Shown here: positions 60 through 9,232 of the stretch, piece after piece
Position numbering within the stretch: the first letter of the stretch is position 1
Layout: the number at the start of each line of letters is the position of its first letter
Assembly: GCA_016209155.1 (NCBI GenBank)
Contig: JACQWU010000043.1
Location: forward strand, 1-9,232
From: Candidatus Desantisiibacteriota bacterium
GTDB taxonomy: Bacteria > JACRDZ01
Direction: 5' to 3'
DNA: 9,232 nucleotides
Program-made: the position numbers and the translations under genes
Notes under the pieces: generated by a model
Database searches by the model: none
Told to the model about the DNA's origin: nothing
Seen by the model: only the letters and a program-made list of their open reading frames with translations

Positions 60-1189
60 GTTTTTTTAAACCTGCCATGGCTTCCTGGCTTTCTTGTTTT
101 ATCGAGTGGCGGAATTTCTTTTTCACCCTCTTTTAAAATAATTCGATATTCTTTTTTATATTTTTTGATTTCATCTGACGATAATATTCCACCAGCGTCA
201 TTCACGGCTATGTTCATATCTTTAAGCAATTCTTTCATTTGTTTTGCCCATGATTGCCCATCTTGTTCCCATGATCTTTCCAATTCCCGCAGATGATGTG
301 CATTACATAACGAATGCAAACATTCATATTTGTAGTAGGGCTTCCAATGATCATGGCATAATGTGCCTTTATATTTTGGTAATATCCCCATTTCATCCAT
401 TGCTTCACTTCCTCTTCTTTTATGAGGATAAAAATATGTCCATAAATCGTTTGATAAGCTGTGCAGCCAGTACTGGTCTCCATTGGAATTTATCCCTGTT
501 TCATCTCCGTGAAGAACCGATGATTCCAAAAGTTTCCTTTTTGCTATTTCTTCAAATAGCTCCAATAAATCGTATGCCTCTTTATTAAAATTGCATATCG
601 ATCCGGCGCTGACAGGAATCCCTTTATCTTGAAAATCTTCTTCAATCCGATTGTAGGGAATCAATTGATACTGAGACAGATTAACCGCATTAGCTTTCAA
701 TTTTATTCCATATTGAACAGGACGAGTAACATTCTCCGGAAACATGGCTGTGAACCGCTTCCCATCTTCACTTTCTAAAATTTGAGCTTGATATTCTGTT
801 ACATGCCGTCTAATATTGATATCAATAATTTGCCTCGATTCATAACCAACTTCCTTGTATTCTCCATGCGGAATAGTTCTTTTATCAACTATCAGTGGAA
901 TTACTTCATCTGGATTATCAACTTTTTTTAACGTTGTTCCATTATGTCCTTTTTGCCCGCCTGGTTTCTTTTCCCCCTTTACCTTTTGCTGCCGTTCTCT
1001 GTTTCGATCTGTCGATGGGGGTTTGCTGCTGTTACGGCTGTTAAGATTTAATCGATTAACAAGTAATGTTACAACCATAACCAACAATTCAATTATAGAT
1101 TTAACAGATGGGTTTATATCTTTTTCTTATTTGAGAAATTTTTCTACTTTCTCAATTGTTGTTTTGATATTTATATTTTCTATTTTCAA
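56..1189 (-). pseudogene. IS66-family transposase, N-terminal stop and C-terminal truncation
   Basis: IS66 transposases are DDE enzymes that cut and paste the element. The longest open stretch (343 codons from 1087) contains the family hallmarks: NSRNSSKPPSTD followed by KKPGGQKGHNG, the zinc-binding-type region, a first acidic site in LHGDETGIN, and CHDHWKPYY followed by HSLCNAHHLRELER. Family members continue for roughly 100 more residues after GRFKK with the conserved segment that carries the last catalytic glutamate. Here the frame ends at 56, where another element end begins. The frame upstream of 1087 also looks coding (KTTIEKVEKFLK, then EKDINPSVKSIIELL) but has a TAA at 1127-1129. The original start was probably a TTG near 1189 or similar. 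Two independent lesions make this a dead gene. Family assignment is very secure; the exact start is not. Confidence 0.85.
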
Positions 1190-1309
1190 GTAACTACCCC
1201 GGGGAAAAGCTCTGTTCTTTTATTTATAAATATCGTAACACGGGTTTTTAAACTTGAATTTTATTCAAGGGTATTCCTTCATTTTTTTTATTTTTTGCTG
1301 AATAGTTAC
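60..1309 (-). mobile_element. IS66-family insertion sequence, truncated
   Basis: This is an IS66-family element of the single-transposase type, with no tnpA or tnpB upstream. It holds the transposase reading frame (about 60-1189), then some 120 bp of AT-rich leader, then a probable terminal repeat reading GTAACTATTCA inward from 1309. The opposite end is missing because the transposase is cut at position 60. The element sits between 1310 and the leftover element end at 1395-1443, so it probably landed in that older element. With one end and the catalytic C-terminus gone it cannot move by itself. Confidence 0.65.
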
Positions 1310-1367
1310 TAAAAAACAAAAATATGATGAATTTTTTTTGTAAGTTAATCTCTTTTTTTATATGATA

Positions 1368-1383
1368 TTCATACGTATGAACT
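1368..1383. promoter_or_regulatory. Palindrome shared with the parB-like gene (candidate parS-like or operator site)
   Basis: TTCATACGTATGAA (1368-1381) is a perfect 14-bp palindrome. Including two flanking bases, 16 bases are identical to part of the 18-bp palindrome at 8880-8897. It lies 12 bp inside the terminal repeats of the leftover element. Binding by the ParB-like protein is an inference. Confidence 0.4.
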
Positions 1384-1394
1384 CTCTTATTGGT

Positions 1395-1443
1395 GGGTCA
1401 ATTTATGTGAGCATTAGCGGGTCAATTTAACTAAGCGCTATAG
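1395..1443 (+). repeat. Terminal repeat pair, copy 1 (inverted relative to 6250-6298)
   Basis: GGGTCAATTTA occurs at 1395-1405 and 1419-1429, then TAAGCGCTATAG at 1432-1443. The inverted partner at 6250-6298 keeps the same order and the same 24-bp spacing, with one change in one motif (GGATCAATTTA). Repeated subterminal transposase-binding sites are characteristic of IS21-family ends. Confidence 0.8.
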
Positions 1444-1484
1444 CCCTAAAGCTTTAAATTTATTTTTTTTAATTTGAACAGATG

Positions 1485-1517
1485 TTTGTAGTGATTCGAC
1501 TTTTGTAGTGACTCCGA
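1485..1517 (+). repeat. Short tandem repeat TTTGTAGTGAYTC
   Basis: TTTGTAGTGATTC (1485-1497) and TTTGTAGTGACTC (1502-1514) are two near-identical copies 17 bp apart, upstream of the AAA ATPase gene. A plausible promoter overlaps the second copy: TTGTAG (1503-1508), 17 bp, TATATT (1526-1531). The repeats could be an operator, but nothing else in the window supports that. Apart from this, the stretch 1444-1638 shows only AT-rich sequence. Confidence 0.4.
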
Positions 1518-1638
1518 ATTTTGATTATATTATGAAACTGTATAAAGATAAAGAATTCAAGTAGGTATATAAAAGGTTTCAGAGGTTTAATGAAATCTTC
1601 TTTACAGCAAGGATAAATCATGTTATTATTTCCTTACT

Positions 1639-2301
1639 ATGAAGAAAGAAATGCTAAAGCAAATAATAAGAGATTTTCATCTTGCAACACCGTCGAACCT
1701 GTTCGAGCGGGATTTGAATGTTCCATTGTCTTCCGGCAAAATTGTTTCAATTATCGGTGTTAGAAGAAGCGGAAAGACCTCTGTTATTTTAAATTTAATT
1801 GAAAAACTGATAAAAAATGGAATAAATAAGCAAAAAATATTATATCTAAATTTTGAGGATGAAAGATTAGATTTAGAAACGGGAGAACTTGATTTAATTT
1901 TACAAGCCTTCAGGGAACTTTCTCCTGATTTAAATCTTAAGGAATGCTATTTATTTTTTGATGAAATACAAAATATTGAGAACTGGGAAAAATTTGTAAG
2001 AAGGGTATATGATTCGGGAACAAAAAATATATTTATTACAGGTTCTAATTCAAAATTTTTAAGCAGTGATATTGCAACCAGCCTTAGGGGACGGGCGTTG
2101 AGCTATGAAGTTTTTCCGCTTTCTTTTAAAGAATATCTTAATTTTAATAAAGTAGTGGTTGATCTTTACAGTTCAAAGTCGGTTGCTAAAATTAATAACT
2201 ATCTTATCAAATATCTGAATAATGGAGGATTCCCCGAGGTTGTCAGCTATGAAGATAGTTTGCGCGAGAAAACAGTGATCTTGTGGAGCGATATGAAATA
2301 A
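1639..2301 (+). pseudogene. DUF4143-type AAA ATPase, N-terminal part of a broken gene
   Basis: This holds the AAA_14 ATPase domain of the large, functionally unclear DUF4143 family, soluble ATPases of about 400 residues. Walker A is GVRRSGKTS (residues 40-48), the Walker B region is LFFDEIQ (105-111), followed by the typical W..FVRR.YD, the sensor-like ITGSNS (133-138), and LRGRALSYEVFPLSFKEYL (149-167). After LREKT (ending 2274) the frame goes wrong: the next residues, VILWSDMK, are not family-like and a stop follows. The true continuation, DLVERYEIKH, resumes two bases later in another frame at 2277. Compared with family members about a dozen residues are missing at the join, so a small deletion broke the gene. 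The ATG at 1639 has no clear ribosome site next to it; AAGGA near 1613 is too far upstream. Confidence 0.8.
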
Positions 2302-3201: not shown

Positions 3202-3525
3202 ATGAATGTTAATCTATTAGAATTTATAAAACTTTGCGTTAAAGAACAAAAAACATATTGGACTTATCATGTAAATATGAGATTAAAAGGACGAAGTATA
3301 TCACGGGAAGCAATTTTATCTTCAGTGAATACTTATGAGATAATAGAGAATTATCCTGTAGATAAATATTTACCAAGTTGTCTTGTTTATGCAAAATATC
3401 AAGGAGAAATAATTCATATCCATATAGCTATTGATTTAGAAAATGATAATATAAGAATAATTACAAGTTATAAACCTACATTAGATAAATGGAAAGAAGA
3501 TTTTAAAACAAGGAGAAAACCATGA
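3202..3525 (+). CDS. DUF4258 domain protein, putative toxin partner of a YgiT-type antitoxin
   Basis: A 107-residue protein with the DUF4258 pattern: a histidine early on (H23 in YWTYHVNMRLKGRSIS), an acidic/proline stretch (IIENYPVDKYLPSCLVYA, about 48-64), a core strand with alternating histidines (IHIHIAID, 71-78) and the closing motif IITSYKPTLDKW (86-97). DUF4258 proteins are small RelE/HigB-like or BrnT-like candidates of unproven activity, very often encoded next to a YgiT-type zinc-finger protein. That is the case here: the stop overlaps the next start (ATGA at 3522-3525). Start ATG 3202 is preceded by AAAAGG near 3182, rather far upstream. The order, possible toxin first and antitoxin second, matches mqsRA. 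Toxicity is inference from context; domain assignment is fairly secure. Confidence 0.8.
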   Translation: MNVNLLEFIKLCVKEQKTYWTYHVNMRLKGRSISREAILSSVNTYEIIENYPVDKYLPSCLVYAKYQGEIIHIHIAIDLENDNIRIITSYKPTLDKWKEDFKTRRKP

Positions 3526-3746
3526 GGTGCCAAAATTGTGGTTGTGAACTAGAGAAAAAAATTACTGATTTACCATTCAAAATTACACATGATTCTATTA
3601 TTATTATTAAAAAACTACCAGTATTACAATGTCAAAATTGTAATGAATATTTAATTGAAGATCCTGTGATGAAAAAAGTTGAAAATATTTTATGTAAAGT
3701 TGATAAAACAGCTGAACTTGAAATTTTAAGTTATGCTGCTGTTTAA
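3522..3746 (+). CDS. YgiT-type zinc-finger protein (MqsA N-terminal-like), putative antitoxin
   Basis: A 74-residue protein with two CxxC pairs, C3/C6 and C37/C40 (MRCQNCGC and VLQCQNCNEYL), that would bind one zinc ion as in the N-terminal domain of MqsA/YgiT. The helix-turn-helix half that lets MqsA repress its operon is absent: after the second CxxC pair only about 34 residues follow (PVMKKVENILCKV and on). It could therefore neutralise the DUF4258 partner by binding, but probably not act as a repressor by itself. It is translationally coupled to the DUF4258 gene by a 4-bp ATGA overlap. A GGACGA-type repeat starts directly after the stop codon. Confidence 0.8.
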   Translation: MRCQNCGCELEKKITDLPFKITHDSIIIIKKLPVLQCQNCNEYLIEDPVMKKVENILCKVDKTAELEILSYAAV

Positions 3747-4267: not shown

Positions 4268-4355
4268 AATGTAAAAGCAAGAATAAGCAATATAAAAGGC
4301 CAAAATCTAGGATATAGGATAAGAGTTTTTTTAGTTCAAGATGGAGAATATAATT

Positions 4356-4607
4356 ATGAAAACTGCAGAATATACTGGTACTATTTTATCGGATGGACAT
4401 ATAGATATACCCAAAAATATAAGGAAAGAATTAAAGTTACAAAAGAATTCAATGGTTAGGGTAACTCTTGTAAAAGAAGAAGATAATAAACTTCCAGATG
4501 ATTTTTTAAAACTTTTTGGAACATGGGAGGATGAACGAGGAGCGGATGAGATAATCAGGGAAATTTATGGAATGCGAATATCTTCAAGAAGAGAAATAAA
4601 ATTATGA
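4356..4607 (+). CDS. AbrB/MazE-like antitoxin of a VapBC-type pair
   Basis: An 83-residue protein. Its N-terminus (YTGTILSDGHIDIPKNIRKELKLQKNSMVRVTLV, about 6-39) has the swapped-hairpin AbrB/MazE pattern: strand, glycine turn, IPK.IR.EL, strand. This fold binds DNA and represses the operon. The C-terminal half (PDDFLKLFGTWEDERGADEIIREIYGMR) would wrap around the toxin. The longer frame opens at 4341, but GGAG at 4344-4347 sits correctly for ATG 4356, so the later start is chosen. The gene overlaps vapC by ATGA (4604-4607), meaning the two proteins are translationally coupled and made together. The pairing with a PIN toxin supports the call. Confidence 0.8.
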   Translation: MKTAEYTGTILSDGHIDIPKNIRKELKLQKNSMVRVTLVKEEDNKLPDDFLKLFGTWEDERGADEIIREIYGMRISSRREIKL

Positions 4608-5023
4608 AATATCTTTTAGATACAGATACTATGATATATTACTTGAAGGGGGAAGAATCGGTAAAACAGAAAATTCTCATGATAGGTTTGGAAAATATCT
4701 CTATTTCTATTATTACGTTATTTGAACTATATTATGGTGCCTATAACTCCAAAAAGATTGATGAAAATATTCAAAGAATAGATAAAATTAAGGAGATTAT
4801 TTTAGTCTTTGGTATTGATAGTTCAATATTTCATCACTTCGGCAAAATAAAGTCTTCATTAAGAAAAACCGGTAAAATAATAGGAGATTTTGATTTAATA
4901 ATAGGGATAACGGTCTTGTCTAAAAATATGATATTAGTTACTAATAATATAGAGCATTTTAGCCGCATTGAAGGGATAGTTATCGAAAATTGGTATAAAG
5001 ATGAAAACAACAATATATCATAA
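4604..5023 (+). CDS. vapC: PIN-domain ribonuclease toxin, VapC type
   Basis: A 139-residue PIN-domain protein of typical VapC length. The acidic Mg-binding residues are in place: D6 in LLDTDTMIYYLKG, E41 in FELYYGA, D95/D97 in IIGDFDLIIG, and the closing LVTNNIEHFSRIEGIVIENW (111-130), where N114 stands at the fourth site. VapC enzymes cleave RNA, commonly tRNA or a rRNA loop; the target cannot be read from sequence. It follows the AbrB/MazE-like antitoxin with a 4-bp ATGA overlap. All catalytic residues are intact, so the toxin is probably active and held by its partner. This pair is the one clearly complete toxin-antitoxin module in the window. Confidence 0.9.
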   Translation: MKYLLDTDTMIYYLKGEESVKQKILMIGLENISISIITLFELYYGAYNSKKIDENIQRIDKIKEIILVFGIDSSIFHHFGKIKSSLRKTGKIIGDFDLIIGITVLSKNMILVTNNIEHFSRIEGIVIENWYKDENNNIS

Positions 5024-5252: not shown

Positions 5253-6059
5253 TTATATAGTCTCAGTAAAAGCGATTCTAACATGTTCCGGTGATACGAC
5301 ATTGCATTTTTTACTTGCCGCAGCAATAAGTGCACCTCTCGCTACTATGTTTGTTTTCCGGAGTAGTCCTCTTGTTCCTTGATGTATAGCCAGAATAGCT
5401 TCATCAGAAAATAGCTGCTGTTTTATTCCTGCAATTTCAAGATGGTGTTTTATGTATTCTCCGGTGTCTTTAAATTTAATCCCATCAAGATGACTTCTGG
5501 AGACAACCCTTGATGCTAATGAACGGGATTTGTCATACATAAGTTTGTCTATTAAATTATTCTGTCCTACAAGAATAATCGGCATTATCGCCTTGGAATC
5601 CATTTCAAACTGCCCTATAGTATGCAGCTGTGAAAATATCTCCAGACGTATAAGATGTGCTTCATCTATTATGAGTACCGGAACTTGTTTTTTATTATCT
5701 ATTTCCAATATTATTTTTCTTATGGTATTCATAATCGATGTCTGTGAAAGAGAATTATTTTCAACATTTAAGGCAAGACATATTTGTTTTAATACTTCGA
5801 GTATTGATCCTGTGTTTGCTGTTACCTCTATTATCCTGTACTGAGAAGGATGAAGCTTGGAGAGCGCATATCTTAATGCGGTTGATTTTCCAGCCCCGAC
5901 ATCACCTGTTATTACTGAGACAGCACCACATCCGACAGAATAGAGAACTCTCTCTGCTATACCAATAACCCCAGGTGTATTTAATATTTGATCAATTTTT
6001 AAATCATGCGGGAATGGTTCATTTTTGAAACCAAAAAATATTTTGTAGTTTGCTATCAT
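5253..6059 (-). CDS. ExeA/TniB-like AAA ATPase, transposition partner
   Basis: A 268-residue AAA+ ATPase of the ExeA-like group found next to Mu/IS481-type DDE transposases. It would act like MuB/TniB: bind DNA with ATP, choose the target and stimulate the transposase. The N-terminus FFGFKNEPFPHDL (8-20) is the group signature. Walker A is GDVGAGKST (52-60), Walker B VLIIDEAH (128-135), the sensor region ILVGQ (162-166), then the arginine-containing SLASRV (180-185). A start at 6107 is open, but AAGGAGAG at 6065-6072 fits ATG 6059, which also begins the family-like sequence. The gene is intact, but its transposase partner just upstream survives only as a tail, so the ATPase is orphaned. It is unrelated in position to istB, which belongs to the next element. 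Confidence 0.85.
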   Translation of the reverse strand: MIANYKIFFGFKNEPFPHDLKIDQILNTPGVIGIAERVLYSVGCGAVSVITGDVGAGKSTALRYALSKLHPSQYRIIEVTANTGSILEVLKQICLALNVENNSLSQTSIMNTIRKIILEIDNKKQVPVLIIDEAHLIRLEIFSQLHTIGQFEMDSKAIMPIILVGQNNLIDKLMYDKSRSLASRVVSRSHLDGIKFKDTGEYIKHHLEIAGIKQQLFSDEAILAIHQGTRGLLRKTNIVARGALIAAASKKCNVVSPEHVRIAFTETI

Positions 6060-6115
6060 CTTAATCTCTCCTTTCAAATAACTTTCCGCTTTTGTAGTAA
6101 GTCTCATCTATAGTG

Positions 6116-6249
6116 TTATCCGGTATTACCGCAATTGACATTTACATTCACAGTAATAAGTATGCCATATGATTTATTCTGATAAAATATCTCTACTCTA
6201 TGAGGATCAGATGCGTGGTAATGCAATGTGACTGTTTTGCCAATAAGCT
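6116..6249 (-). pseudogene. C-terminal tail of a Mu-type DDE transposase, cut by element insertion
   Basis: On the minus strand the frame ending with TAA at 6116-6118 reads ELIGKTVTLHYHASDPHRVE, then IFYQNKSYGIL and NVNVN. This is the C-terminal beta-barrel pattern (LIGKTV...Y.P.....VE..Y.GKSYG) of DDE transposases that precede ExeA-like ATPases. The frame can be followed back only to about 6249, where the TAAGCGCTATAG tip of the ParB-IstAB element starts. It ends 56 bp before the ATPase start, as expected for an operon of the two. It is too short to act. The family call rests on this pattern plus the neighbouring ATPase. Confidence 0.7.
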
Positions 6250-6298
6250 CTATAGCGCTTAACTAAATTGACCCATTTATACTCAGATAAATTGATCC
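6250..6298 (-). repeat. Terminal repeat pair, copy 2 (right end of the ParB-IstAB element)
   Basis: On the minus strand: GGATCAATTTA (6298-6288), GGGTCAATTTA (6274-6264), 24 bp apart, then TAAGCGCTATAG (6261-6250). It is the inverted counterpart of 1395-1443. The stretch 6299-6379 between it and istB holds nothing recognisable. Confidence 0.8.
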
Positions 6299-6379
6299 GT
6301 AGGTTTACAGCATATTAAACAAAGATGGCGGTAAAATTCATATTAAAATAATATAAACATGCTATGGCTGGAGAAATGT

Positions 6380-7117
6380 TTAGTTTTGGATTAACTTTGG
6401 TCGTAGGCTTACACATTTATTTAAATTAAAAACGTGGCTGTTTTCAGTTAAACGATCAATCAATGCTGCGGTCAGATGTTCGTTCTTTAAAAATGAAGTC
6501 CATTGTTGAAAAACAAGGTTTGTAGTAAAGAGCGTGCTCTTTTGTTTATGTCTTTTATGCATAAGAGTAAAAAACAGACCGACTTGAATCGGCTCTATTT
6601 CTATATATCCCAGCTCGTCAATTAACAAACAATCATAAGAAGCAAATCTATTAATCACTTCTTTTTCCGAATGATCTGCAACTGACTTGTATAACAGTTC
6701 GATTAATTCGGGAAATGAAATAAATCGTCCATTGTATCCGCGATCTATTGCTTGAATAAGAAAAGCTGTTGCTAACCCGGTTTTGCCGGTTCCTGTTGCA
6801 CCAATCCATGTAATGTTTTGTTTTTTTAAAATATAATCAAAAGAGTCATATACATTCATGATTTTCTTTTTGTTCAGTTGTGGTTGTTTCTGAAATGGAA
6901 ATGTTTCCATAACAAGTTTTTCAGGGATTTGAGCCCGGCTAAGCCTTAGTTTCATAGAGTTTTCTTTTTTTATTTTGTATTCTTCTTCAATAATATATTT
7001 CAGAAGTTTGACATTGGAGAAGTCTTCCTGTCGAGCGGTTTCCAGATAGCGATCCCAATTGTTTAATAATCCTCGGAGCCGAATATATTTAAGCATCTCT
7101 TCGAGTTCTTTATCCAT
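6380..7117 (-). CDS. istB: IstB-like ATPase, IS21-type transposition helper
   Basis: A 245-residue AAA+ ATPase of the IstB/DnaC-like family. It helps the IstA transposase by binding and bending target DNA. The N-terminal helical part (1-75) includes LRGLLNNWDRYLETARQEDF and EEEYKIKKENSMKLRL. Walker A is GATGTGKT (106-113), Walker B CLLIDELGYI (163-172), the sensor TTN (198-200) and a DRL motif (221-223). The frame is open from 7219, but AGGAGG at about 7124-7129 fits ATG 7117, which also gives the usual IstB length. The start overlaps the istA stop, so the two are translationally coupled. All ATPase motifs are intact. Confidence 0.9.
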   Translation of the reverse strand: MDKELEEMLKYIRLRGLLNNWDRYLETARQEDFSNVKLLKYIIEEEYKIKKENSMKLRLSRAQIPEKLVMETFPFQKQPQLNKKKIMNVYDSFDYILKKQNITWIGATGTGKTGLATAFLIQAIDRGYNGRFISFPELIELLYKSVADHSEKEVINRFASYDCLLIDELGYIEIEPIQVGLFFTLMHKRHKQKSTLFTTNLVFQQWTSFLKNEHLTAALIDRLTENSHVFNLNKCVSLRPKLIQN

Positions 7118-8507
7118 TTTTTTCCTCCTCTTCGCATAGTTTGTCATATATTGATAAATCCACTTTTTCGCTTTCGCACCCTTCCATGTAGGATTCTCGA
7201 TTTTGAAATTGGTCATCAATTAAAGCTATTGGAATTTTGTAATTGCCGTTTGTCATTTGTAATATGGCTATTCGCTCAATTGTTGCTATATCTGTAATTC
7301 GATATTTTAATGCTCGTTTGATAGTTGTAATAAATAATGGCAATGCGATTTTTTGATACAAATTGAAGAGTTCTCTAATAAATCGATGTTTGTTTGTGCC
7401 TTCTGTTTTAACTGCAAAGTTTAGATATGCTTCTACTTCTTCTCCTGCTTTTCGTAGTTTCTGTTCTTCTTCTTGTGTTGGTTTTTTCCGATCATGAGGC
7501 ATATGTTTTGGTCTTGGCATTCCGTCCGGACTGATGATTTCATTTCTAACACCATCTGCCGGGAATTTATACTCAACCAGCAATTTTCTTTGACAATAAA
7601 TTTTTAAAGTTTGACTGTATTGTATTATTGTTATGTCTTCACGTTTTGTTCCGGGAACCCAATAATAATTAGCATCAAATGCTGTATATCCATATTGATC
7701 TGTTCCTCTCTTGAGAATCAAATTTACTGTTGCCCACTGAAAAGCTTGATTATTTAAATCTTCCAGATTTTCAAATTTACGGCCGGGGAAAAAATTTGTC
7801 TCTACTGTATAAAAACTTCTTTCATTGCCAGCCTTACGATTTGGGTGGCCTACTTCATGACAAGCAAATTTAAATCCAAACTGTTTAGCAAATTGTTCCA
7901 TTTCAGGGACTATTAATGCGTTTTTACCTGTTCCCCGCAGACGTGCAAGGTTTGTGTTGTCTATGATACAAACACGGGCACTGTATCCAAAAAAAATAAG
8001 TGCTTCATGAAAAAAACATTTCATTTTAAAACGGTCAAATGTACGGTAAAATTTCAAATAACGTATTTTTGAGTATCGTAAATATAAAATACTGCCCACA
8101 ACTCTAACTTGTTTATCGCCAATTTTTATGGTGTATGGTGAAATATCTTGTTGCATTTCTATTCCAGGCTCGTCCGGTACTCTATCACATCTATTTTCTT
8201 GACATTGACCAAGTCCAAGCTCCTGAATCATTCGGGTTAATGTAGAATATCCGACATGTGTGCCTTCTTCTTCAAGCTTTTCATGAATCCGCTCTACCCA
8301 GCCATCACATTCGGAATAAAGCCGTTTTAAAATTTCAGTATCAATTTTTATTTTATCATTTCTTACTGTTTCAGGAACAACACCTTTTTGTTTGATAATG
8401 GTTCGTACAGTATTACGACTTATTTTTAATCTATTACTAATCTCACGAACTCCCATTCCTTCTTCATGCAAAGAAAATATTACTTTACGCTTTTCCGGAT
8501 TTATCAT
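7110..8507 (-). CDS. istA: IstA-like DDE transposase (divergent IS21 type)
   Basis: A 465-residue transposase. It starts with a helix-turn-helix (EEGMGVREISNRLKISRNTVRTIIK, about 15-39) and a second one (GYSTLTRMIQEL, 86-97). The rve/DDE core has likely catalytic residues D121 (MQQDISP), D183 (CIIDNTN) and E229 (KAGNERSF). The last has 45 residues between it and D183, with NER in place of the commoner KVER-type motif. A basic linker (PKHMPHDRKKPTQEEE) and the helical C-terminus that would contact IstB follow. ATG 8507 has GAGGG about 8 bp upstream and overlaps the end of the parB-like gene by 23 bp; its stop overlaps istB. The core motif differences mark it as a distant IS21 branch, but nothing looks broken. 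Confidence 0.88.
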   Translation of the reverse strand: MINPEKRKVIFSLHEEGMGVREISNRLKISRNTVRTIIKQKGVVPETVRNDKIKIDTEILKRLYSECDGWVERIHEKLEEEGTHVGYSTLTRMIQELGLGQCQENRCDRVPDEPGIEMQQDISPYTIKIGDKQVRVVGSILYLRYSKIRYLKFYRTFDRFKMKCFFHEALIFFGYSARVCIIDNTNLARLRGTGKNALIVPEMEQFAKQFGFKFACHEVGHPNRKAGNERSFYTVETNFFPGRKFENLEDLNNQAFQWATVNLILKRGTDQYGYTAFDANYYWVPGTKREDITIIQYSQTLKIYCQRKLLVEYKFPADGVRNEIISPDGMPRPKHMPHDRKKPTQEEEQKLRKAGEEVEAYLNFAVKTEGTNKHRFIRELFNLYQKIALPLFITTIKRALKYRITDIATIERIAILQMTNGNYKIPIALIDDQFQNRESYMEGCESEKVDLSIYDKLCEEEEKNG

Positions 8508-9232
8508 ATATCGCCCTCACTGCTTTTGAAAAAATATCAATTTGTCTTAATATCCCTCCGGCAAGTATATTTGCCTGAGCAAAATAAGAATTATTTCCTA
8601 ACTTTGGAATATTGCTTTTATAGGTTACTTTCTGCATATATTTCTGTGTTATCTCCAGATCTTTTAGCATTCCTTGTTCAAATTCATTGCAGTTGTTTGA
8701 ATTTTGAGCTTCATCTTTAAGACAGCTTAACCCCCAACCTATATTACCGCTTTTGATTTGTGCTCGAAATTCTTCTGTGCCTCTGAAATATCCATGGGCA
8801 AGACGTTCTATCTCACGGATGCTTAATTTCTTCCCTGCAACGAATTTTACAAATTCATCAATTTCATCTTTGGTTGCAAAGTTCATACGTATGAACTGGC
8901 GCAAGGTGTACATATAGGAATATACAGGAAATTTACCGCTAAATATTTTCTCACGCATACATTCACTCATCTCATCGATTATTCCTATCCGCATACTTAC
9001 CCATGATTTACTCCTCTCCAGTTTCTCGCTTATTTCCGCTATGCACATTTTATGTATTTTTTTTAAATCATCTATCAATTTTGCTTGTTCTAAAATACTA
9101 AGACTTTTGCTGTTGGATATCCGCAGCAACTCGATAATTCCCATAACTTCATCCGTCCCAAGTGAAATATATGGAAGTATCCGTATTCCGAGTTTTTGCG
9201 CACAACGGTATCTTTTAAACCCATTTAACAAA
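8485..9232 (-). CDS. ParB/KorB-like DNA-binding protein, partial at right edge
   Basis: About 248 residues are visible; the 5' end is outside the window. The visible sequence begins inside the ParB N-terminal domain: LNGFKRYRCAQKLG matches the D/NG..RY.A...LG motif. The central helix-turn-helix follows: LSILEQAKLIDDLKK, IAEISEKLERSKSWVSMRI (about 64-82) and EMREKI-like helices. The C-terminal 100 residues are not recognised. ParB proteins bind parS palindromes, and many are CTP switches; the motifs for CTP binding would lie mostly off the window. The gene overlaps istA by 23 bp, so it is part of the transposition operon rather than a parA-parB locus. An 18-bp palindrome lies within it. A role as regulator of the operon or as a factor acting at the element ends is inference. 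Confidence 0.8.
   Translation of the reverse strand, partial: LLNGFKRYRCAQKLGIRILPYISLGTDEVMGIIELLRISNSKSLSILEQAKLIDDLKKIHKMCIAEISEKLERSKSWVSMRIGIIDEMSECMREKIFSGKFPVYSYMYTLRQFIRMNFATKDEIDEFVKFVAGKKLSIREIERLAHGYFRGTEEFRAQIKSGNIGWGLSCLKDEAQNSNNCNEFEQGMLKDLEITQKYMQKVTYKSNIPKLGNNSYFAQANILAGGILRQIDIFSKAVRAIYDKSGKA
8880..8897. promoter_or_regulatory. 18-bp perfect palindrome, parS-like candidate site
   Basis: AGTTCATACGTATGAACT is a perfect palindrome inside the parB-like coding sequence. Like bacterial parS it is a roughly 16-bp palindrome centred on ACGT and flanked by GTT/AAC, but the rest differs. Sixteen of its bases recur at 1368-1383 near the related element end. Such sites within or beside their own par genes are common for ParB systems. 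Function is not shown. Confidence 0.45.

Follow-up and report, generated by a model that had tools for sequence, protein, structure and literature searches.

Chromosomes and plasmids use ParB clamps to segregate DNA or to silence genes at a distance. KorB, for example, silences promoters that are as far as 1.5 kb away from its operator (PMC11790492). In Burkholderia cenocepacia, parS sites have been found inside the genes parBc2 and parBp1, and expression of parB is presumed to be kept low by the site within parBc2 (PMC4948915). In the IS21 family of transposons, it is in the ends of the element that the promoters are located (PMC10122671). We describe here a stretch of 9232 bp (the window), contig JACQWU010000043.1 of the draft genome of a Candidatus Desantisiibacteriota bacterium, which holds the right part of a 4–5 kb IS21-like transposon. 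Judging from gene order and overlap, a parB gene placed before istA is an integral and conserved gene of this element, and it contains a candidate parS of its own. The branch to which the element belongs is widespread and apparently undescribed: we found no description of ParB in IS21-like elements in the literature, where coverage of subscription journals and preprints was thin and an earlier account may exist.

Since the window is the entire contig, neither the 5′ end of parB nor the left end of this copy is visible, and a search of the source genome gave no further copy of the element and no missing piece. The three genes are read from the minus strand. The parB-like gene (8485–9232) is an open reading frame (ORF) that runs open to the contig edge, its 5′ end being cut; its product is of the ParB/Noc/KorB type, with an N-terminal nucleotide-binding-type domain followed by a helix-turn-helix (HTH) domain. 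Its stop codon lies 23 bp within istA (7110–8507, with its ATG at 8507), the DDE transposase gene, which overlaps by 8 bp, ATGGATAA, the gene istB (6380–7117) of the AAA+ helper ATPase. These ORF coordinates agree with the coupled overlaps that a first-pass annotation of the window had reported. IstB is readily recognized (IstB_IS21, E 1e-47). IstA matches NCBIfam transpos_IS21 with E 2e-30, at 106 bits for a curated cut-off of 160, and the Pfam and NCBIfam matches of ParB (KorB, HTH_ParB, TIGR00180) are weak, each below its cut-off. The parS-like site, GTTCATACGTATGAAC, occupies positions 8881–8896 (minus strand) inside parB, at codons F-I-R-M-N. The right end of the element (6250–6300, plus strand) comprises an outer repeat, CTATAGCGCTTAACTAAATTGACC, and an inner repeat, CTCAGATAAATTGATCC, followed by GTAGGTTTACA, of the right-end type; a target duplication is not visible for this copy. 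About 35 residues that are present in relatives, between the catalytic and the C-terminal domains, are missing from the window IstA (between NLILK and RGTDQ, window about 7700–7720), an apparent internal deletion; the copy is probably defective and may be dead.

A tblastn search of plasmids with IstA gave one close relative, on pHRM2a of Desulforapulum autotrophicum, where parB, istA and istB stand in a row between a hypothetical gene and a CHC2 zinc-finger gene; collections of plasmids, phages and viruses contained no other close relative. With the two IstA proteins aligned as the query, 84,980 genomes were scanned, the loci being chosen by IstA only. This yielded 72 loci from about 20 phyla, mostly in metagenome assemblies. 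Prevalence is low, at 3/395, 9/396 and 6/392 genomes in three phylum samples. In 64 loci, the window and pHRM2a being counted, the start of IstA is complete and enough sequence precedes it to look for parB; when parB was called by profile search, the gene was found directly upstream of istA in 63 of these. The sole exception, L066, is a broken fragment. The overlap of parB with istA is exactly 23 bp in 44 of the 63, and nearly all overlaps are 2 modulo 3, so that the frame relation is kept. This is compatible with a ParB–IstA fusion made by programmed frameshift, while frames locked by the overlap explain it equally well. Because overlap and gene order recur in about 20 phyla, chance is excluded.

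The first-pass annotation had proposed that a ParB-like protein is built into an IS21-type operon without a parA partner, that ordinary IS21 elements lack it, and that the divergent IstA core (D121, D183 and E229, with NER) marks a distinct branch. All of this stands. The three catalytic residues, with N228-E229-R230, are invariant between the window IstA and its HRM2 homologue; five ordinary IS21 loci of plasmids, annotated with istA and istB, have no parB; and the genes of the elements examined include no ParA. In a tree of 67 IstA proteins, every parB-linked IstA falls on one side of a fully supported branch, apart from the five ordinary IS21. In a distant clade (clade 2), whose IstA is about 31–35% identical to that of the main clade, parB again precedes istA and, where checked, the order is orf1-parB-istA-istB. 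This row is the operon of the branch, and istB is often followed by a CHC2 or Toprim gene. The overlap of parB and istA is thus not peculiar to the window, nor are its relatives devoid of parB, two outcomes that would have spoken against the proposal.

Complete relatives measure 4–5 kb and are bounded by paired terminal repeats and target duplications of 5–8 bp. Each end is made of two tandem repeats with consensus CTATAGCGCTCAGATAAATTGACCC, the second copy lying about 25 bp inward. The pHRM2a element, 4737 bp long, is flanked by an 8-bp duplication, GTGGAGGC. By locus, the duplication is 8 bp in L004, 6 bp in L009, 5 bp in L028 and 7 bp in L110, of clade 2. In the clade 2 genome G509, two copies share 3897 bp at 99.97% identity, with a 7-bp duplication at one of them. 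The ends fixed by these duplications read 5′-CTA...TAG-3′ in clade 1 and 5′-CTT...AAG-3′ in clade 2. A left end placed between parB and istA would have put parB outside the element; in complete relatives it lies upstream of parB, by some 780–930 bp in most. Since borders with target duplications enclose them, parB, orf1 upstream of it and, often, the CHC2 or DUF3991-Toprim gene downstream are inside the element. In L055, two near-identical right ends (4892 and 5007) are found 115 bp apart in opposite orientation, so that a second copy seems to have been inserted beside the first.

What kind of protein does this parB encode? The profile of a 51-member family, compared with the PDB, retrieved ParB of Bacillus subtilis (6sdk, E 2.6e-12), Noc and other ParB proteins, and an AlphaFold model of the L006 protein (mean pLDDT 90) led Foldseek to ParB, Noc and KorB structures. 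According to these models a ParB fold is present, with its N-terminal and HTH domains. A GxxRxxA-type CTP-binding motif, which the first-pass annotation had singled out as a feature to look for, is kept in part. GFKRxRCA retains part of the arginine patch, as GFKRxR in nearly all members for the usual GERRxR: R2 and R3 are kept, E is changed to F and R1 to K. Lost is ENxxR, the ParB hydrolysis motif, replaced by x-L-L-R at the position given by alignment to 6sdk. The gene is under purifying selection like istA (dN/dS 0.13–0.28), and ParB distances track IstA distances (Mantel r 0.857, for a permutation maximum of 0.312). In the pairs L006/L008 and L023/L024, parB has a much higher dS than istA and istB have, a sign that the left half of the element may have recombined there.

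A palindrome search over complete elements produced a single motif, a 16-bp dyad whose position is the same in nearly every parB, at the codons for F-x-R-x-N (codons 164–168). It has 57 matches in 493 kb, nearly all of them at parB +485 to +515, and none in Markov controls. Its two halves vary together, as in TTT ATA CGT ATA AAC, TTT ATG CGC ATA AAC, TTC ATA CGT ATG AAC, TTC ATG CGC ATG AAC or TTT ACG CGC GTA AAC; GTTTATACGTATAAAC is one of its 16-mer forms. Isoleucine at the dyad is always encoded by ATA, a codon used for only 17% of isoleucines elsewhere in the same genes. When codons are redrawn for an unchanged protein sequence, the expectation is 236.7 ± 5.8 paired positions; the observed number is 324 of 344, and an origin in codon constraint is rejected by this synonymous resampling. 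On average, 7.52 of the 8 pairs of the dyad are formed, against 4.88 for the next best segment of parB, istA or istB. Compensatory changes occur at six of the eight pairs, and none of 500 shuffles reaches the main covariation measures. Because the central pair, positions 7 and 10, covaries as well, the dyad is a feature of DNA; read as an RNA hairpin, it would have a loop of two bases, and this reading was discarded.

Clade 2 has dyads of the GTTGGCGCGCGCCAAC type at homologous codons, three perfect out of nine, the others with 6–7 of 8 pairs. A perfect dyad of L103, at +524, was rejected as the homologous site, being at the wrong position; the aligned L103 site pairs at 6/8. One variant, GTTTATGCGCATAAAC, matches exactly the parS consensus published for chromosome 2 of B. 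cenocepacia (PMC7022226). In L059 the site is repeated unchanged 51 bp upstream of parB. In many elements, about 1.26 kb separate the dyad from the left end; distances range from about 1.2 to 1.9 kb on the left and 2.8 to 4.0 kb on the right. A conserved parB, a conserved internal dyad and a gene set devoid of ParA together define, by sequence, an orphan ParB–parS module with its candidate parS.

That the parS-like site is internal to parB favours loading in cis, and the encoded ParB, as a dimer, very probably binds this site in the DNA from which it is expressed. From there it would spread over the DNA of the element and act mainly as a regulator that restrains the operon, in the manner of KorB; it may, in addition, mark the element or contribute to the shape of the transpososome. 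Control of the operon at a distance seems the most likely use: KorB reaches 1.5 kb, the dyad of many elements is some 1.26 kb away from the left end and IS21 promoters are in the ends. This chain of loading, spreading and, mainly, operon regulation seems moderately likely. We would give a probability of about 55% to the overall explanation, that of an IS21-like transposon with an orphan ParB–parS module which restrains its operon. Put in evolutionary terms, the odds are slightly better than even that a transposon lineage has domesticated a complete ParB–parS loading system, with the centromere within parB, as a sliding-clamp controller of transposition.

Several observations weigh against this explanation. 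The regulatory role, to begin with, is argued from analogy. The CTP motif being kept in part, the clamp may close differently or not at all. Six of the nine clade 2 elements have an imperfect dyad, and only two loci, L059 and the remnant in the window (site at 1366–1381), have a further site close to a likely promoter or end. There is no clear match between HTH residues and site variants, residue 126 of the recognition helix ranking 33 of 277. Finally, once IstA is accounted for, the correlation of terminal repeats with ParB is not significant (partial correlation).

Other uses of the module can be thought of. Mu and Tn7, with related AAA+ helpers, have target immunity (PMC11208146), which makes it attractive to suppose that ParB, loaded at its internal parS, coats the element and turns it into a poor target for insertion by IstB and IstA. 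An internal loading site combined with sliding would mark exactly the element, and the two G509 copies are 0.88 Mb apart. The second right end of L055, 115 bp from the first, is yet at odds with strict immunity, as is in the window a related left end only 4.8 kb from the right end; furthermore, ordinary IS21 manages without ParB, and we see self-protection as an unlikely function. It is quite unlikely, too, that ParB and parS are a structural cofactor, dimers bridging or bending DNA so that IstA can synapse distant ends, as the internal enhancer of phage Mu would do. Such a role would fit with the single internal site, which keeps its place in nearly every element, and with the tight co-inheritance with IstA, but the distances from site to ends vary, and integration by the IS21 family has been studied in vitro with IstA, IstB and end repeats, without ParB (PMC10122671, PMC11208146).

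In one of its forms the dyad is a centromere sequence of B. cenocepacia, and one element resides on a plasmid, pHRM2a: could ParB borrow a ParA from the host or from a plasmid and so partition the element, when it is extrachromosomal or circular, or the plasmid that hosts it? With no ParA in the elements examined, and nearly all relatives outside the plasmid, phage and viral collections, this is very unlikely. At the other extreme ParB would be a passenger, the dyad being bound by IstA or the orf1 protein, or being a by-product of codon constraint. That site variants do not clearly track the HTH residues would agree with this idea, against which stand the synonymous resampling, the end repeats (the known kind of IstA target), which differ from the dyad, the identity of one variant with a known parS, and the fact that ParB is almost never lost from the branch. 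We hold the passenger role to be highly improbable.

A transposon that owns an orphan ParB, with a parS written into its gene, and that has kept both over very deep divergence in some 20 phyla, would put the clamp to a new use and add a level of control to AAA+ transposition of the Mu/Tn7 kind. As a sliding-clamp controller, ParB would be a third control protein beside the transposase and its AAA+ helper, linking segregation clamps with DDE transposition. Questions are thereby made testable: the effect of the clamp on expression, on target choice and on the pairing of ends, and its action without the usual CTP hydrolysis motif. Covarying codons, besides, are a route to parS sites from sequence alone.

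The remainder of the window deserves a few words. The right end at 6250 sits in what is probably the 3′ remnant of a Mu-type transposase gene, the target of the insertion (6119–6249, minus strand), with weak Pfam support (Mu-transpos_C, E 0.1); the gene of a partner ATPase of this presumed transposase (5253–6107) adjoins it. A left-type end at 1390–1443 (minus strand), facing low coordinates, belongs to a second related element or remnant, and just inside it is a second parS-like site, GTTCATACGTATGAAT (1366–1381, minus strand). The two ends might be those of one element, circularly permuted by joining the contig edges, with its left end at 1443 and its right end at 6250. This was rejected: the flanks share no target duplication and the start of parB is not found elsewhere, and the ends are taken as two insertions. 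Inside this left-type end at 1443, in the stretch 56–1443, lies a truncated IS66-type transposase ORF. Between the two element ends are two small pairs of toxin–antitoxin-like genes (3202–3746 and 4341–5023), namely DUF4258 with a zinc-finger partner and an AbrB/MazE-like protein with a PIN protein.

Among the relatives, a gene for a DUF3991-Toprim or CHC2 (DnaG-type) protein comes right after istB in L005 (4269–5078), L018 (3936–4811), L056 (4670–5674) and L004 (8245–8781), a primase-like gene within an IS21-like element, next to its DnaC-like IstB. The first gene, orf1, encodes small, basic, cysteine-rich proteins of several types (L004, 4555–5034; L008, 421–879; L083, 3275–3730), which gave no convincing Pfam match. 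In several genomes istA is broken at the same codons, between HPNRK and AGNE, beside the catalytic glutamate (L075, 195–3483; L066, near 6666; L073, near 5978; and the contig edge of L065). The L075 insert encodes a large serine recombinase of 687 residues (230–2293, minus strand), and all this looks like recurrent site-specific insertion into the transposases of the branch; a group II intron was dismissed as the cause, the sole Rfam match (L066) being far from the break. In one planctomycete, in-frame internal deletions fuse pieces of ParB, IstA and Toprim in open frames (L068, 2–1036; L076, 1489–2631).

How does the branch compare with known systems? With the IS21 family (IS21, IS5376) it shares a DDE IstA with HTH and C-terminal domains, an AAA+ IstB helper, overlapping genes, two tandem repeats at each end (L1/L2 and R1/R2; PMC10122671) and target duplications of a few base pairs. 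It differs by its size, 4–5 kb for about 2 kb in IS21, by its ends, 5′-C...G-3′ where IS21 has a terminal CA-3′ (PMC10122671), by the score of the window IstA, below the NCBIfam cut-off, and by its genes, orf1, parB and often a CHC2/Toprim gene being added to the istA and istB that are all that IS21 has. Gene content and terminal bases being different, we file it as a divergent IS21-like branch, not as standard IS21. KorB of plasmid RK2 is also a ParB-fold regulator, its domain is among the best Pfam matches and its repression is long-range, within about 1.5 kb (PMC11790492); it has, however, another operator, a KorA partner and a plasmid setting, and the CTP motif is less complete in the ParB of the branch. 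A 2025 survey of the ParB-CTPase fold also deals with orphan ParB proteins found without ParA on mobile DNA (PMC12704722). Its main text, by contrast, has no transposon or insertion-sequence terms, and it used curated cut-offs below which the window, HRM2 (WP_012663308.1) and L006 ParB proteins fall. ParT of the Streptomyces plasmid SCP2 is a ParB-like protein which, while it has no CTPase domain and works with ParA on a plasmid, has a palindromic parS inside its own gene (PMC12260392). The candidate parS of the branch is, by its sequence, a 16-bp palindrome as in ParABS, the difference being that no ParA is encoded with ParB among the elements examined. Finally, on chromosome 2 of B. cenocepacia, ParBc2 works within ParABS, together with a ParA and more than one parS, whereas the branch has normally one site per element and no ParA; the 16-bp parS, GTTTATGCGCATAAAC, is nevertheless identical in many elements, and in both cases a site lies within parB (PMC7022226, PMC4948915).

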